Origin: Bemisia tabaci
Taxonomy: Eukaryota > Arthropoda > Insecta > Hemiptera > Aleyrodidae
Direction of reading: 5' to 3'
DNA: 64,000 bases
NCBI RefSeq assembly: GCF_918797505.1
Contig: NC_092794.1
Coordinates: forward strand, 2,356,001 to 2,420,000
Below, piece by piece: positions 4,404 to 44,645 of the stretch. Made by a program: the position numbers and the translations under genes. Every line of letters starts with the position of its first letter. Position 1 is the first letter of the stretch. The notes under the pieces are model-generated. The model was not told the DNA's origin and searched no databases. It worked only from the letters and a program-made list of their open reading frames with translations.

Positions 4404-4814
4404 CACTGAAAAAAAATCTCGGTGTATTTACTAGGAAAAGGGTAAAATTACCAAGCATTCGGGGTTCTATTTGATCCCAGCTTTTTCTTGGTAAAATTAC
4501 CATTTATGGAATTGGTAATTTTACGGAGAAACCTCGGTAAAATTATTGAACTTTCTCGGTAATTTTACTGGACCTTAATGCCAATATTTGTCATCGACTG
4601 TGGTAGAATTACCGAGATAAAATGGCAAAGTTACCGGGAATCGATTACCTATAAAAGTGGTATTCTTACCTGAAAAAAAAACCAGTAAAAATACCAGTTT
4701 TTAGGTAAGCTTACCAGTCTGTCTTGGTAAAATTACCGATAATTGGTAAAAAAAAGTGAGATGGTAAAGGTACCAACGGACCTTGATAAAAACACCGAGA
4801 ATTTTTTTTCAGTG
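4404..4814. mobile_element. MITE of GGTAAAATTACC modules, copy 1
   Basis: Ends are CACTGAAAAAAAATCTCGG and its inverse, CCGAGAATTTTTTTTCAGTG. The 411-bp body is packed with GGTAATTTTACC or GGTAAAATTACC palindromes and half-sites such as GGTAAGCTTACC. TT on each side (4402-4403, 4815-4816) is a candidate 2-bp target duplication. The copy at 23495-23907 is collinear but inverted. No coding capacity. Confidence 0.8.
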
Positions 4815-5370
4815 TTCGGTGTCTACGGATTTTCCGGAATTTCAAGGGATCTAAGGATTTTTTTGATGAGGTAAAGTAAGCAAAAATCGACTTTTTAATC
4901 TCAATTGTAGCTTCGACTATAGAAAATATTTATTCATCTATACTTTGCAGGCCTTATTGACAACACTTTTTTCCCCGTAGATAAGCCGGAACAGAAACGA
5001 TTGCGTCACTCGAAATACTCGACATTCAACAGTAAAAAAAAAATAATAATAATATTAATAATAAAAACTCGACTAATATTCTTTCATTTTATTGGCCTGT
5101 TTCAGCACTGCTTGGCACTACTTTCAGAGAGCGGCACTTTTTCGTTTATGAAAATCGGACTCCTCTCGAGTGCGAAAAGTTGCAACAAAGCGTTTTAGTC
5201 TCGAAAGGGTTTAACTTGGCTTTTACGCGTTACTGCTGTGAGCGTCCTTCATTTTTTGCCCTACGACGGTAAAGCTGCAAAAAAGCGAAACAACAAACGA
5301 CATAAACTTCACCTGGACGTATTTATGCTAAAAAATGCCGTATTTATGCCCCGCCAATTTCGTAGTTTTT
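4815..5370. other. No feature recognised
   Basis: AT-rich with an AATAATAAT-like run at 5041-5064. No repeat pair or coding signature seen. Confidence 0.45.
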
Positions 5371-23368: not shown

Positions 23369-23494
23369 TTTCAGAGTTTAACAATGTGAGCGTTATGTGT
23401 ACCTACATTCATAACTTCAGTTATTTGAGGCAAGTGAAAAGCTAAGATTTTCCTTCAAACCCGTGTGATACCACATCACATACAAACGCTGCTA

Positions 23495-23907
23495 CACTGA
23501 AAAAAAATTCTCGGCGTTTTTACCACGGTCCGTTGGTACCTTTACCATCTCACTTTTTTACCAATTATTGGTAATTTTACCAAGACAGACTGGTAAGCTT
23601 ACCTAAAAACCGGTATTTTTACTGTTTTTTCCAGGTAAGAATACCACTTTTATTGGTAATCAATTCCCGATAATTTTGCCATTTTATCTCGGTAATTCTA
23701 CCACAGTCAATAAAAAATATTGGCGTTTTTACCAAGGTCCAGTAAAATTAACGAGAAAGTTAAATAATTTTACCGAGATTCCTCAGTAAAATTACCAATT
23801 CCATAAATGGTAATTTTACCAAGAAAAAATTGGGATCAAATAGAACCCTGAATTCTTGGTAATTTTACCCTTTTCTTAGTAAACACACCGAGATTTTTTT
23901 TTCAGAG
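23495..23907. mobile_element. MITE of GGTAAAATTACC modules, copy 2 (inverted)
   Basis: Collinear with 4404-4814 in reverse. Starts CACTGAAAAAAAATTCTCGG, ends CGAGATTTTTTTTTCAGAG. TA on both sides (23493-23494 and 23908-23909) fits a 2-bp duplication. Inserted next to a copy of the 17-nt palindromic motif. Confidence 0.8.
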
Positions 23908-24330: not shown

Positions 24331-24424
24331 AGCGAGAGACACAATAGCCCGAATGCAGACAACAATAAGAACACACTAAAATACAAAACAAATGGGTATA
24401 CAAGGCTAGAGGACACATAAACAA

Positions 24425-24465
24425 CCAGGACGTTTCGGGCCAATTACATGCCCATTCTCAACTGG
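24425..24465 (-). ncRNA. Hammerhead-ribozyme-like motif, copy 1
   Basis: Read on the minus strand, 41 nt: stem I CCAG pairs with CTGG at the end; core TTGAGAA; stem II GGGC pairs with GCCC around a 9-nt loop; then GAAACGTC. GAAA plus a two-base ACGT stem III and C17 match the minimal hammerheads known from Penelope-like elements, whose self-complementary ACGT makes them act as dimers. Deviations from CTGATGA: C3 is T and G8 is A, which keeps the known 3-8 tertiary base pair possible, and one extra T precedes stem II. Activity is untested. Confidence 0.5.
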
Positions 24466-24620
24466 AATAAAAGTTGTAAAAATTTAAACAAGAAAATGAG
24501 CATGCAACTGACCGAGGTCGGAATCAGTGCAAACTAAAAAACAGAGCAAAGGTGGATATAGGGGCACTATCAGCTCCTTGATAATAGGCCAACCTCTATA
24601 CTATACCCACCAAGGAGTGT

Positions 24621-25130
24621 TTATAGAGGCTCTTCTCTACCACAGAAAGACTGATGATAGGATGCGCTCAATCCATCTATGTCAGCCCTAAAGTTGCATA
24701 GTTCACCTCTATTCTTGACGATGTTTATCATCTCCAACACACCTCTGGCAAAGTCCCGGGACTCGACAGCTAAAATTTTGGGCGAATCAAAATCAAAATG
24801 GTGCCCCAATTCATCCTCATGTTGGTGTAGAGCTGTATTTTCCTGTCAGTTGTACATATGACCGTACAGCCGTTTCCTCAAGAGTTGGGAAGTTTGCCCA
24901 ACGTAACTCAAATTACAATCTTTACAGTTGATTTTGTAAACAACACCAGCTTGTTGTCCAACAGGGCGTTTGGCTTTCAGCTGAGATGTTAAAAATTTGA
25001 GCGTGTTGTAATTGGAGTGTACAACCCTAAAATTGAAACTCATGAGGATCGAGGCTAGATTTTCCGATAAAAGTGGGACGTACGGTAGAGAAATTATTTT
25101 TGACACATCAACATTTTTTTCTTTACTCAA
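24621..25130 (-). pseudogene. GIY-YIG endonuclease remnant of the Penelope-like element, copy 1
   Basis: Encodes SKEKNVDVSKIISLPYVPLL, then VVYKINCKDCNLSYVGQT (the GIY and YIG positions read VVY and YVG), the conserved arginine in LLRKRLYGH, and after an in-frame TGA (24846-24848) the tail with HEDELGHHFDFD, expected to hold the late acidic and histidine residues. Copy 2 has CGA where this copy has TGA, so this is a point stop. The family nicks target DNA for retrotransposition. Dead as it stands: no reverse transcriptase and a stop. Confidence 0.75.
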
Positions 25131-25157
25131 AGTTGGATTTTGAGATGCAGTTTTATT

Positions 25158-26155
25158 AACGAGCTATATCCCTACAATCCCTGACCTGGATTTAATCCAT
25201 AGGGAAGCATAAAAATATGGAGAAAGGAGACGATTTTTGAGGGCCTAATCAAAATCAAAAGGCTAAAATCAAGGAAAACGAGAAGGAAAAGACCCTCCGT
25301 TTTTGAAATTGGCAGGAAATTCTGTGGAAAAGAAGAATGTGGAAAGTCTGTGGGATCTCGAAAACGTGAAAGCTTAGAAGATTCAGCATCCCTGCAATCA
25401 CACTATCGGCATCTGAAGGTATGGCTGTTGTTCCGCATCATAGTGTTAAAGGGCAACGTTGACATTTAACCCTTTGTTGCATGAGCTGATCGTTGATTTT
25501 GGAGAAAATCTACATTGTGCAGTATTTTTTGACACTAGAGTCGGTTGGAATCGATTTTTGTGGTTTTTTCCAAGTGAGGAGATCAGACATTGTATAATGT
25601 TCCCCAAAAATGATTTCTTACTTTGATTCAATTTAATACTCCAGCATAGAAATAAAGCTGAAAACCATTTGTTGCTTTCATGCAACGCTATGCAATAAAG
25701 GGTTAACTGATTGAAAACCAATGAACATTTTTGACTCCGCACGCTAGAACTGCGATTTCTTGACACTGTCACCAGAAACGGCATGAGATTCTTTTTTATA
25801 CGATCCTCGCATCAAAAATTAAGAAACTCTGAGCCAGACAGCCCCTCCCCCCCCCCCCCAAGCGATCGGCCGTCCAAGCGCTGCCTAACGCAAGCCAAAC
25901 GCTAAGTTTTTCTTCCTTCCAAAATTCGTTAATTTAAAGACTGACTGGTCCAAATTTCGATTTTTGTAGACGTAGGTAGGTATAACGTTTTTTTTTTTTA
26001 AAAAAATGTAATTTTTTCTGAACTTTATAACTTTAAAAACTGGTTATTTTTTCAATACAACCGTTATTATTTCTGATCTACCAGTGATTAATAGTACTTA
26101 AAACAATACCGATTTGTTTCAACACCATTTTTCATTAAATTATGCATTTAAACAA
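25158..26155. other. No gene recognised; weak palindrome
   Basis: TTAACCCTTTGTTGCA (25467-25482) pairs with TGCAATAAAGGGTTAA (25689-25704), framing a 112-codon minus frame that I read as incidental. A C-run lies at 25844-25859 and a T-run at 25989-26000. Confidence 0.4.
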
Positions 26156-26303
26156 TAGACGGAGGGGGGGGGGGGGTCTGGCCAGCCTTGCGTGATTATT
26201 AGGGGGGCGGGGGTCCAGACTAGCCTTACGAGTTCCTTACGGGGGGGGGGGGGGGTGTCTAAAAATCGGAATAAATGCCTTACGTAATTTGTGGACGGCC
26301 CCT
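26156..26303. mobile_element. Poly-G MITE, ACGTAATTTGTGGACGGCCCC end
   Basis: The right end reads TTACGTAATTTGTGGACGGC, then CCCT. The body is dominated by G-runs (26164-26176, 26241-26255) separated by TCTGGCCAGCCTTGCG and TCCAGACTAGCCTTACG, a duplicated unit. The left end is unclear. Similar architecture to 47027-47408. Confidence 0.5.
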
Positions 26304-27083
26304 GAACAGCTATAAAAGTTACTAACAAATAGGTACAGCATGGAAGAGTTCCCTCTTGACATCGCAAAAATTCATAATTAAAACAAGGACACACAATAGG
26401 TGGGTAGATAGTCCTTTTCCATACAGCCGGAGAGCTGTTGTACTCGAAGCCACCTATCTATCATCCGCTGACGCGAGGGAGAGGGAAGGGGGAGGGGACT
26501 TGCACCGATCCTGAGGATCATGAATTTCGTACGTAACAGAAAGATGGGAAAGAGAGGGGAGTGGAGGGTGGCGGGAGCGGAGGGCGAAGACAGAACGTGC
26601 CTAAACCAGAGTAAAGCGAGAAGTTCCTCGACTCATTCCGAGAAAACAAATTTGGAGAAGAAAGGGTGAGGGAGCACCTAAGAATTGGATTGATAATGAA
26701 GCGATCGGTAGCATATCAAAGGGGAAAACCGAAGTGTCGAAAAATCAGAGTGAGAGAATCAGAATGAAACGAGCTGAAATCGCTCGCTCGGGCTCCGAAT
26801 CCCGAGAAAAGGGTTCCTTATCTACCTGCTAGACCGCCAGCAGACTGCCAGACATCCGGTGGGGTGTCTCGCCCGCCGTGTCGTCGCCAATTCGTTCGGA
26901 TTCCTAGTAAAACCAACCGAAAACATTTCGATGCCGCTGACCCTTCCATTCGAATCTGGCGGGAATCTAACTTTCAGCATAGCGAAAAGAGTGTTTGCCA
27001 TGCTCAAAAATATTCGACTCAGGTCTTTTGGAATACCTACAAGAAAACCAACCAAAACGCTTACGTCTTAGTTTCTGAGAACA
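26304..27083. other. Purine-rich sequence, nothing firm
   Basis: GAGGGAGAGGGAAGGGGGAG and related runs over 26470-26650. Overlapping frames at 26822-27166 on both strands have no domain. A short GGTGGGTAGATAG / CACCTATCTATC inverted match lies at 26399-26462. Confidence 0.35.
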
Positions 27084-27200
27084 GGATTGCCACAGAATTT
27101 GGCAAATGTACTCGTACTTCCCTGAAATTTTCTGGCAAAGGACGATTTCAGAAACGGTTGAGATGACAATGAATTTGAAATAGTTTTCATGCAACACTTT
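27084..27200. repeat. Decayed GTTGCCACAG element
   Basis: ATTGCCACAGAATTTGGCAA, TTCCCTGAAATTTTC and ATAGTTTTCATGCAA match the left half of 14400-14669. The right end is not seen. Confidence 0.5.
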
Positions 27201-27288
27201 TTGCCACTGGAAATGTCGAACGAACTTAATTTTAGAATTTCACCCGAACGTTTGAAAGAAACCTTTCTTCTTGGAAAACAACATTTGT

Positions 27289-27537
27289 ACCGCGTTAAAC
27301 AGAAAGGAACCAAGCCACATCAGCTATTGCCAAATTTAATCGGCTAATTAAAGTTTTTACATAAGAACAGCTGTGCGGATTTTTGTGCAAATTTCAGTGA
27401 ATTTTCGCCATAGTACGAAGCAAATTCCTTAACATTTTCAAAGGGATCCGCACAAACGTTTTCTAGTAAAAAATTAAATTGCCCAGTTAAAATTGGCAAT
27501 AGCTGATGTGGCTTGGTTCCTTTCTATTAAACGCGGT
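27289..27537. mobile_element. MITE with ACCGCGTTAAACAGAAAGGA arms
   Basis: The left arm (27289-27335) continues ACCAAGCCACATCAGCTATT; the right arm (27493-27537) is a near-perfect inverse. Flanking ACATTTGT / CCATTTGT (27281-27288, 27538-27545) is a 7-of-8 target duplication, pointing to an 8-bp duplicator. GTGCGGAT / ATCCGCAC mirrors in the centre. Confidence 0.8.
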
Positions 27538-28051
27538 CCATTTGTACCTCGAAAAAGCTAACTTAGTAGTAACTTCAGAAAAAACTTGGAAATTTTTGAA
27601 CTAGGAAAATTATTCAAAAATTTTTCGTGAAATTATCCTCACACCAAGTATGATAAGTTAATGAATTGCGCAAAAGTACCTAGAGCAATAAAGTACTCCA
27701 AAATATTGTCACATTTATATGATACATATTACCTAATGAATTTTGAGACCTTAAATGACGACTACCTACTTCAGCTGTCTCTCAACGTCGCGTCACCTGA
27801 AATTTCGATTGGAAAGTGGAGAAGAGACACACATCAGGAAGAGAAGAAAAGAAGTCTCAACTTTTCTTACAGTTGATGGGAAGAAATTTATCAGCAACAA
27901 AAAGTTATGACTAAAAAAATCCTGACAAAAAGTGATCAATTTGAAGAAGGGCACATTTTCATTGTTTTGGAAATTTTTGGAAAAAGTTTATTAGTTCAAA
28001 ACTGTTATCTTCTCCATCTCATTGACAGCATTTTTCGCTTAGTTTTACACA
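27538..28051. other. AT-rich, nothing recognised
   Basis: Short plus frames (27661-27876, 27907-28134) lack known domains. The second runs into the retroelement fragment. Confidence 0.4.
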
Positions 28052-28082
28052 AAGCTAATAAAACTGCATCTCAAAATCCAAC

Positions 28083-28594
28083 TTTGAGTAAAGAAAAAAA
28101 TGTTGATGTGTCAAAAATAATTTCTCTACCGTAAGTCCCACTTTAATCGGAAAATCTAGCCTCGATCCTTGTGAGTTTCAATTTTAGGGTTGTACACTCC
28201 AATTACAACAAGCTCAAATTTTTAACATCTCAGCTGAAAGCCAAACGCCCTGTTGAACAACAAGCTGGTATTGTTTACAGAATCAACTGTAAAGATTGTA
28301 ATTTGAGTTACGTTGGGCAAACTTCCCAACTCTTGAGGAAACGGCTGTACGGTCATATGTACAACCGACAGGAAACCAACATATGTACACCAACATGAGG
28401 ATGAATTGGGGCACCATTTTGATTTTGATTCGCCCAAAATTTTAGCTGTCGAGTCCCGAGACTTTGCCAGAGGTGAGTTGGAGATGATAAGCATCGTCAA
28501 GAATAGAGGTGAACTATGCAACTTTAGGGCTGACATAGATGGATTGAGCGCATCCTATTATCAGTTTTTCTGTGGTAGAGAAGAGCCTCTATAA
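28083..28594 (+). pseudogene. GIY-YIG endonuclease remnant, copy 2
   Basis: Same domain order as copy 1: KEKNVDVSKIISLP, stop codon TAA at 28132 where copy 1 has TAC, a second TAA shortly after, then IVYRINCKDCNLSYVGQT, the arginine in RKRLYGHMYN, and a one-base length change near 28370-28385 that shifts the tail (GHHFDFDSPKILAVE) into another frame. More decayed than copy 1. Confidence 0.75.
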
Positions 28595-28756
28595 ACACTC
28601 CTTGGTGGGTATAGTATAGAGGTTGGCCTATTATCAAGGAGCTGATAGTGCCTCTCTGCCCATCTTTGCTCTGTTTTTCAGTTTGCACTGATTCCGACCT
28701 CGGTCAGTTGCATGCTCATTTTCTTGTTTAAATTTTTAAATTTTTTAGCTTCTATT

Positions 28757-29238
28757 CCAGTTGAGAATGGGCATGTAATTGGCCATAGGCGGTTCTACAG
28801 GGGTGCCAGTGGGTGCCTGGCACCCCAAAATCAAAAATTAAGTATGGTTATTGGAACCGTGAAATTATTGCTTTTAAAGATTCTGTATTCGCTCACTCTG
28901 AGAAAAAATCCCAGCAATAAATTGAAAATGTTTTAAACAGAATTAAAATTGATAGCCGTTTTTCACAAAGATTCCACTGTTTTTTTGTGGTAAGATTGTA
29001 GTTTTGATGGAAAGTTTTGCTAAAAATTTACAATATTGAATTTACAGGTATTTAAGTAGAGAGGAAGGAGAGAAAAAGAGAAAGGAGGGTAGGGTAGGGA
29101 TAAAACTTGAGGGCCGAAACTTAGGCCTCCCCTGAGCGACCGTCCCCTTTGGAGCCGGTGTCCGACATTTTCCACTTCTGGGCACCCCCAAGAATGAAGG
29201 TCTAGAACCGCGTATGTAATTGGCCCGAAACGTCCTGG
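28757..29238 (+). ncRNA. Hammerhead-like motif, copy 2, split by an insertion
   Basis: The 5' half (28757-28783) has CCAG, TTGAGAA, GGGC and the loop. The 3' half (29225-29238, after the duplicated TAATTGGC) has CCGAAACGTC and CTGG. Ignoring the insert, the sequence equals copy 1, including both core changes, so those are shared by the family and not private mutations. Confidence 0.45.
28784..29216. mobile_element. Non-autonomous hAT element inserted in the retroelement
   Basis: Ends CATAGGCGGTTCTACAG and (inverted) CATACGCGGTTCTAGACC. TAATTGGC is duplicated exactly on both sides (28776-28783, 29217-29224). Subterminal GGGTGCCAG..GGGTGCC and GGGCACCCCC also mirror. The interior is AT-rich with AGAGAGGAAGGAGAGA runs and no transposase. 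Confidence 0.85.
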
Positions 29239-29465
29239 TTGTTTATGTGTCTTCTAGCCTTGTATACTCATTGGTTTTTTGTATTTTAGTGTGTTTTTAT
29301 TGTTGATATTTTCAAACATCATGTCTCTACGTCCATTATTAATTAACGGAGGTATTGCCCATGGTAAAATACGATGTATGACGTCATACACCGCGTTACT
29401 TTTAAGACTGTATGCACTTCCGCGGTGGATGATGTTATGATCTGTCAATACTGAACGTAAAAAAT

Positions 29466-29580
29466 TGGCGATTGGACACACTTTGTCCATTTGATTAATG
29501 AAAAAAGAGCTTACACCATCAAAATACGATTCTGTCCAGCGCAACTGACCCATGTATCCTGCAACAATTGTTAACTGCCG
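29466..29580. repeat. 115-bp segment identical to 30081-30195
   Basis: The last 115 bases before the N-run and the first 115 after it are the same in every base, in direct orientation, each ending TTAACTGCCG. This looks like an unmerged contig overlap. Confidence 0.9.
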
Positions 29581-30080
29581 NNNNNNNNNNNNNNNNNNNN
29601 NNNNNNNNNNNNNNNNNNNNNNNNNNNNNNNNNNNNNNNNNNNNNNNNNNNNNNNNNNNNNNNNNNNNNNNNNNNNNNNNNNNNNNNNNNNNNNNNNNNN
29701 NNNNNNNNNNNNNNNNNNNNNNNNNNNNNNNNNNNNNNNNNNNNNNNNNNNNNNNNNNNNNNNNNNNNNNNNNNNNNNNNNNNNNNNNNNNNNNNNNNNN
29801 NNNNNNNNNNNNNNNNNNNNNNNNNNNNNNNNNNNNNNNNNNNNNNNNNNNNNNNNNNNNNNNNNNNNNNNNNNNNNNNNNNNNNNNNNNNNNNNNNNNN
29901 NNNNNNNNNNNNNNNNNNNNNNNNNNNNNNNNNNNNNNNNNNNNNNNNNNNNNNNNNNNNNNNNNNNNNNNNNNNNNNNNNNNNNNNNNNNNNNNNNNNN
30001 NNNNNNNNNNNNNNNNNNNNNNNNNNNNNNNNNNNNNNNNNNNNNNNNNNNNNNNNNNNNNNNNNNNNNNNNNNNNNNNN
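29581..30080. other. Assembly gap, 500 N
   Basis: Exactly 500 N, a round number typical of a placeholder. All frames crossing it are artefacts. Confidence 0.98.
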
Positions 30081-30195
30081 TGGCGATTGGACACACTTTG
30101 TCCATTTGATTAATGAAAAAAGAGCTTACACCATCAAAATACGATTCTGTCCAGCGCAACTGACCCATGTATCCTGCAACAATTGTTAACTGCCG
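30081..30195. repeat. Second copy of the gap-flanking 115-bp segment
   Basis: See 29466-29580. Sequence continues uniquely after 30195 (AGGGATAGTGG), whereas the left copy continues uniquely before 29466. Confidence 0.9.
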
Positions 30196-33568: not shown

Positions 33569-33981
33569 AAGTTGATTCCTCCCAGGAAATGAACAAGCAT
33601 CGATCTGTCGAACAAATGTTGCTGTAATACGAGTTTTGCTTTTCACTCTTAACAAAAAAAAAGTGCTAAAACAGTGTAGAAGCATACTGAAGCAGTCTGT
33701 TGGTGAAAAGTCTCTTCCCAAAACCCCTAAATTAATGCCAAATGAGACTAAACGCGAAATATCGCATTTTATTTAACCAATAGAATGCGATATTTTGCGG
33801 TCAGTCTCATTTGGCTTTAATTTAGGGGTTCTGGGAAGAGACTTTTCACCAAAGGACTGCTGATGTATACCTCTACACTGTTTCAGCACTTTTTTTGCTT
33901 ATAGAGAAAAGCAAGACTCGTATTACAACAAAATTTGTTCGACAGATCGATGTTTGTATGCTTCCTGGGTGGAATCACCTT
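33569..33981. mobile_element. AAGGTGATTC-type palindrome with CGATCTGTCG arms
   Basis: Left AAGTTGATTCCTCCCAGGAA, right its inverse TTCCTGGGTGGAATCACCTT. Inner arms CATCGATCTGTCGAACAAAT and GAAAAGTCTCTTCCCA mirror through to a centre near 33780, where GCGAAATATCGCATT appears. Confidence 0.8.
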
Positions 33982-44430: not shown

Positions 44431-44645
44431 AACTGCAGTCAAAAATAATAAACATAAATAAGGCCGACGTTTCCTTCCAAAATTAATTTTAGCAGTTTTT
44501 TCAAGCGCGCGGTAGAAACATCTCAAGTGTTGTTTGAGCTAAAACGCTATGGTTGTCTTGAAAACGATCAAAATCGCTTACTGTATTGTTTGTCAGAGGG
44601 CATCTTTGATTTGTGGCTTATGCTGCTGTACTTGCTTGTTTTTTT

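Follow-up and report, generated by a model that had tools for sequence, protein, structure and literature searches.

A probable minimal hammerhead ribozyme with a U3-A8 core in a truncated Penelope-like element of Bemisia tabaci

A 41-nt motif on the minus strand of a 64,000-nucleotide stretch of Bemisia tabaci DNA (the window, meaning the whole stretch that was analysed) is probably a minimal type I hammerhead of a Penelope-like element (PLE) with a tolerated U3-A8 core, lying within the 3' pseudo-LTR of a copy truncated at its 5' end and cutting as a dimer, with the PLE protein, or both. In the core of the source element, U3-A8 would have stood in place of the tertiary C3-G8 pair. We infer that, in a tandem transcript, two of these motifs could pair via the self-complementary ACGU of GAAACGUC to give a stem III, that the PLE protein may help cleavage, as an addition or alternative to the dimer, and that a cut 3' of GUC would process the RNA into units. 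A U3-A8 core together with an extra U in a PLE family, of the type found in the Anolis carolinensis PLE (Poseidon; PAc), would offer a natural experiment on the 3-8 tertiary pair of a minimal, protein-assisted ribozyme.

On the minus strand, positions 24465..24425 read CCAG-TTGAGAA-T-GGGC-ATGTAATTG-GCCC-GAAACGTC-CTGG, in which a stem I strand, a CUGANGA-like core, a stem II hairpin, GAAA, a UH cut site and the second stem I strand follow one another in hammerhead order (Table 1). The letters are as described in the first-pass annotation, whose proposal of a minimal hammerhead layout is also supported: stems I and II have 4 bp each and are both fully paired, and the motif by itself lacks a stem III. 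The self-complementary ACGU, which lies in the 24429..24436 region within GAAACGTC/GAAACGUC, could provide stem III in a dimer. The strict consensus letters C3 and G8 are absent from the motif, and the 3-8 pair is present as U-A (C-G in PAc), in line with the earlier suggestion that this pair had been kept. Core position 7, a variable position, is G both in the window motif and in PAc.

Table 1. Coordinates of the ribozyme, of the two element copies and of associated features in the window
Feature	Position	Strand	Basis
Stem I, 5' strand CCAG	24462..24465	-	Read from sequence
Core TTGAGAA, positions 3-9, with U3/A8 instead of C3/G8	24455..24461	-	Sequence, PAc comparison
Extra U between A9 and stem II; makes AUG with A9 and G10.1	24454..24454	-	Same in PAc
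Stem-loop II, GGGC-ATGTAATTG-GCCC	24437..24453	-	Sequence
3' core GAAACGTC; predicted cut after last C	24429..24436	-	Cut site predicted from the family
Stem I, 3' strand CTGG	24425..24428	-	Sequence
Element tail after the ribozyme; end point common to both copies	24360..24424	-	Two-copy alignment
Copy A: degraded C-terminal part of PLE ORF, GIY-YIG endonuclease, one in-frame TGA	24624..25160	-	tblastn of P0001
Hairpin in 3' repeat, identical in both copies; 3' arm holds GTCAGT	24504..24530 (copy B, 28685-28711)	- (copy B, +)	Fold, alignment
Possible 51-nt mini-intron GTCAGT...TTTTATTCCAG; 3' splice site = stem I strand	24462..24512	-	Inferred from sequence
Possible mini-intron, copy B counterpart, 58 nt	28703-28760	+	Inferred from sequence
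Copy B: PLE ORF fragment, GIY-YIG domain, frameshift near 28374, in-frame stops	27976..28591	+	tblastn
Copy B ribozyme, 5' part CCAGTTGAGAATGGGCATGTAATTGGCC	28757..28784	+	Sequence
429-bp insertion splitting copy B ribozyme, flanked by 12-bp duplication ATGTAATTGGCC	28785..29213	+	Copy alignment
Copy B ribozyme, 3' part: second duplication copy, then GAAACGTC-CTGG	29214..29238	+	Sequence

The full motif was searched for as a 4-bp stem I, a 7-nt core with a C-G or U-A 3-8 pair, zero or one extra nucleotide, a 4-bp stem II and GAAACGTC. It occurs once in the 64-kb window and in none of 300 first-order Markov simulations of the window, and relaxing the 3' strand leaves these counts unchanged (1 in the window, 0 in 300 simulations). 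As a second control, 242 other loci were picked by spacing patterns of the core plus CGAAACGTC, comprising 240 from viral contigs and 2 from genome contigs, the latter two coming from a stricter pattern with stem I fixed; at these loci, at least 3 bp in both stems were found in 0 of the 237 spacings of core and GAAACGTC. Since the motif is unique in the window and was recovered in neither the 300 simulations nor the 237 spacings, it is not attributable to chance. A chance resemblance, for which an ordinary folding energy and the absence of an Rfam hammerhead match (see below) would speak, is already effectively refuted by the simulation and locus controls, and the PLE context of the motif stands against it as well.

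The other core-pattern matches were rejected. The variant and canonical core patterns each gave at least 120 matches in the viral-contig scans, which were taken as chance, none of the 237 spacings having both stems. With stem I fixed, the stricter pattern had no match in the viral contigs, and its two matches in genome contigs (bacterial MAGs) carry GTGA where the core has C/T-TGA and were also taken as chance. Within the window, another GAAACGTC is found at 44466-44473 (minus strand), with TTGAAAA ending 24 nt before it; with 1 bp in stem I and, at both offsets, 0 bp in stem II, this is no hammerhead.

The assignment of the surrounding DNA to a PLE, which the first-pass annotation had also made, is borne out by a GIY-YIG domain and by a relative with reverse transcriptase (RT) motifs read by eye. 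Over 179 aa, the copy A frame shares 96% identity with P0001 (tblastn), and P0001 carries GIY-YIG (PF01541, E 3e-5, above the cut-off), so that the C-terminal GIY-YIG endonuclease of a PLE is recognized through a protein 96% identical to the window frame. The ribozyme begins 159 nt past the last coding base of this frame, a position that would fall within the 3' pseudo-LTR of a PLE copy lacking its 5' part. In a longer relative, P0005, the GIY-YIG part is joined to SLDVVSMYTNI, QGLAMGGS and YVDD, which we take, by eye, to be RT motifs; the Pfam scan of P0005 listed only GIY-YIG and no RT family. RT plus GIY-YIG is given as the make-up of canonical Penelope-like elements (PMC11167929). The RT is absent from both truncated window copies, and none was seen for the window among the protein relatives of the endonuclease part, in translations of 26200-28100 or by Pfam on nine ORFs (0 families).

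Searching the PDB by sequence with the endonuclease alignment gave 0 matches, and a bacterial-code scan gave 0 tRNA genes. Protein and alignment scans for the endonuclease matched 9 and 32 stretches in viral contigs and 29 in genome contigs, among which no relative was confirmed. The protein hits include one from the wasp Diachasma alloeum, with 36% identity to P0003. Eight of the ten listed protein relatives (P0003-P0010) bear the precomputed Pfam label PF26215.1, which our own Pfam scans did not list. Near copy A there is another dispersed repeat, an inverted pair at 23494-23901 and 4409-4815 (~410 nt, 91% identity).

The second copy of the element, copy B, spans about 27976-29305 on the plus strand. 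With the insertion left out, it is 96% identical to copy A over 799 aligned positions (32 substitutions and 10 gap columns), while BLASTN gave 95% over 729. Copy B carries CCAGTTGAGAATGGGC at 28757-28772 (plus strand), and its ribozyme letters are identical to those of copy A but split, leaving an intact ribozyme in copy A only. The earlier statement that the core changes are common to both copies is therefore correct for the letters, but the copy B ribozyme is cut by the insertion at 28785-29213. Each copy has one 3' repeat and a truncated 5' end, and the copies lie on opposite strands; no same-strand tandem partner of the ribozyme was seen in the window. Both copies are coding-dead.

The two copies differ in their flanks and 5' ends, the copy B frame extending further upstream, and share the same 3' end (24360 and 29305). 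On these alignments, the simplest reading would be two separate insertions from a source already having the U3-A8 core. The 41-nt identity of the ribozymes is by itself no evidence of constraint, because 1.6 changes would be expected and zero differences are not significant (P 0.19). The common 3' end past the ribozyme would fit an internal start of reverse transcription, as demonstrated for PAc (PMC11167929).

The insertion at 28785-29213 has short imperfect inverted ends (CATAGGCGGTTCTA / TAGAACCGCGTATG, 93% complementary) and is perhaps a small non-autonomous DNA transposon, for which a 12-bp duplication is long. Outside copy B, 115 bp are identical at 29466-29580 and 30081-30195, flanking a 500-N gap (29581-30080), and look like an assembly overlap left unmerged.

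In the minimum-energy fold of the motif, stems I and II both form and the extra U makes a U-G wobble with the catalytic G12 (-10.3 kcal/mol, versus -9.5 kcal/mol without this pair). The folding energy is ordinary, both for the 41 nt (z -0.86, with 33 of 200 shuffles as stable) and for a 66-nt segment that includes flanking sequence (z +0.21, 118 of 200). When two 41-nt copies were cofolded, a different duplex was obtained at -25.4 kcal/mol, compared with -19.9 kcal/mol for the hammerhead dimer with an ACGU stem III; the energy model, which is blind to tertiary contacts and protein, does not favour an easy dimer. In scans run without a PLE-hammerhead positive control, the Rfam hammerhead models had no match in the window, nor on a 131-nt slice at E values up to 10. 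All 30 matches listed in the Rfam scan of the window fall below the gathering scores and were taken as chance, as was potC at 24442-24509 (E 0.067, below its gathering score); 25 of the 30 are microRNA models, several of them on inverted repeats. The long inverted repeats at 161-355 and 33715-33839, which attract sub-threshold microRNA models, are perhaps palindromic transposon remnants.

That the predicted folds do not single out a hammerhead would also suit a decayed PLE hammerhead, whose source lineage was already inactive and whose positions 3 and 8 underwent two transitions that left them paired by coincidence. The truncated, coding-dead state of both copies and the interruption of copy B point the same way, and both substitutions, C-to-T and G-to-A, are of a type that occurs often. 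However, all other conserved core bases are intact, both 4-bp stems are fully paired and the motif is common to two apparently separate insertions; moreover, two random substitutions among 11 conserved core bases, the number of conserved positions in the hammerhead core, would leave a Watson-Crick 3-8 pair in only ~0.6% of cases. We consider decay rather unlikely, even with the observation in its favour that PAc insertion in vitro is independent of ribozyme cleavage (PMC11167929).

In the 3' repeat upstream of the ribozyme, the stretch 24490-24545 is unusually stable when folded (z -3.19, a stability reached by 0 of 200 shuffles), and the hairpin within it could be a binding or priming element. 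The 3' arm of this hairpin would supply the donor of the possible mini-intron listed in Table 1. The criteria for this intron were chosen post hoc, and are matched by 15 of 4860 simulated CCAG sites, the donor part alone being matched by 122 of 4860. According to a review, spliceosomal introns occur in PLE terminal repeats (PMC11722881); the printed PAc RNA, inspected by eye, has no CAG at the corresponding place. If CCAG served both as the 5' strand of stem I and as the acceptor of an intron of 51-58 nt in the pseudo-LTR, with a core that tolerates U3-A8, splicing and self-cleavage would be mutually exclusive in this PLE: spliced RNA would lose stem I and serve as mRNA, and unspliced RNA would keep the ribozyme and be cut into genomic units. 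We regard this proposal as improbable. In the literature covered, no title dealt with a PLE hammerhead that overlaps a splice site, and since key primary papers fall outside that coverage, such a case may be published.

The stretch might instead be kept for a different role, such as protein binding, an AUG or a splice acceptor, with its likeness to a hammerhead an ancestral residue. The CCAG follows a pyrimidine-rich stretch and resembles a 3' splice site, PLE terminal repeats are said to hold introns (PMC11722881), and the AUG formed at A9-U-G opens the ORF in PAc (PMC11167929). In copy A and copy B alike, however, a stop codon follows the third codon of the AUG frame (ATG GGC ATG TAA), and neither the compensated stems nor GAAACGUC would be called for by such a role. 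We regard this explanation as very improbable.

The preferred reading, a minimal type I PLE hammerhead with a tolerated U3-A8 core, can be compared with the PAc ribozyme, whose RNA contains CCU-CUGAGGA-U-GCCU-loop-GGGC-GAAACGUC-AGG (letters as printed in PMC11167929). Core positions 4-7 and 9, the extra U, GAAACGUC, the GUC cut site and the presence of two short stems are the same in both, and the sole conserved-core difference is the 3-8 pair. In an alignment with this one relative, made by hand and anchored on the cores (MAFFT placed the gaps otherwise), four of the eight stem pairs (I-1, I-2, II-2 and II-3) are changed on both sides and paired in both RNAs. The pairs I-3 and II-1 do not differ, II-4 pairs C with G in the window motif but U with G in PAc, and I-4 is paired here but not in PAc, stem I having 4 bp in the window motif and 3 bp in PAc. 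Only the two copies in the window and one published relative bear on covariation. Because the program used for the window motif, run unconstrained on the PAc 41-mer, forms stem II and pairs the core CUGA instead of stem I, the comparison of stem I with PAc rests on the hammerhead model.

The distance from the AUG to the cut site is 26 nt in PAc and 24 nt, to the predicted cut, in the window motif. The extra U had been called unusual in the first-pass annotation, a view that is not supported: the same U is present in the printed letters of the PAc hammerhead, where it is part of the start codon AUG (PMC11167929), so that a PLE hammerhead with assay data has it too. In PAc, cleavage is abolished by either single mutation, C3G or G8C, and partly regained in the double mutant, and no cleavage is seen without the PLE protein (PMC11167929).

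The U3-A8 change has a precedent among other hammerheads. C3-G8 covaries to U3-A8 in several natural hammerheads, and ribozymes with covarying nucleotides at 3 and 8 were proven active in vitro (Perreault et al. 2011, PMC3088659). The central idea of the first-pass annotation, a natural covariant 3-8 core, was accordingly right in kind but not new, this covariation being already in print. The text of section 8 of that paper names neither the carriers of the change nor PLEs, and the legend of its Figure S7 includes, among inactive hammerhead-like RNAs, several with more than one deviation in the core (PMC3088659). A search that demands C3 and G8 would overlook U3-A8 members. The picture of hammerhead function is unchanged by this motif. 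A viroid hammerhead, reportedly described by de la Pena and Flores in 2001, is said to have an extra catalytic-core nucleotide between A9 and stem II; it resembles the window motif in having an extra core nucleotide, but comes from a viroid. With the minimal PLE hammerheads of Cervera and de la Pena (2014) and of Lunse, Weinberg and Breaker (2017), as summarized in a review (PMC7761336), the window motif would have in common a pseudo-LTR location, a minimal type I form and a possible dimeric action.
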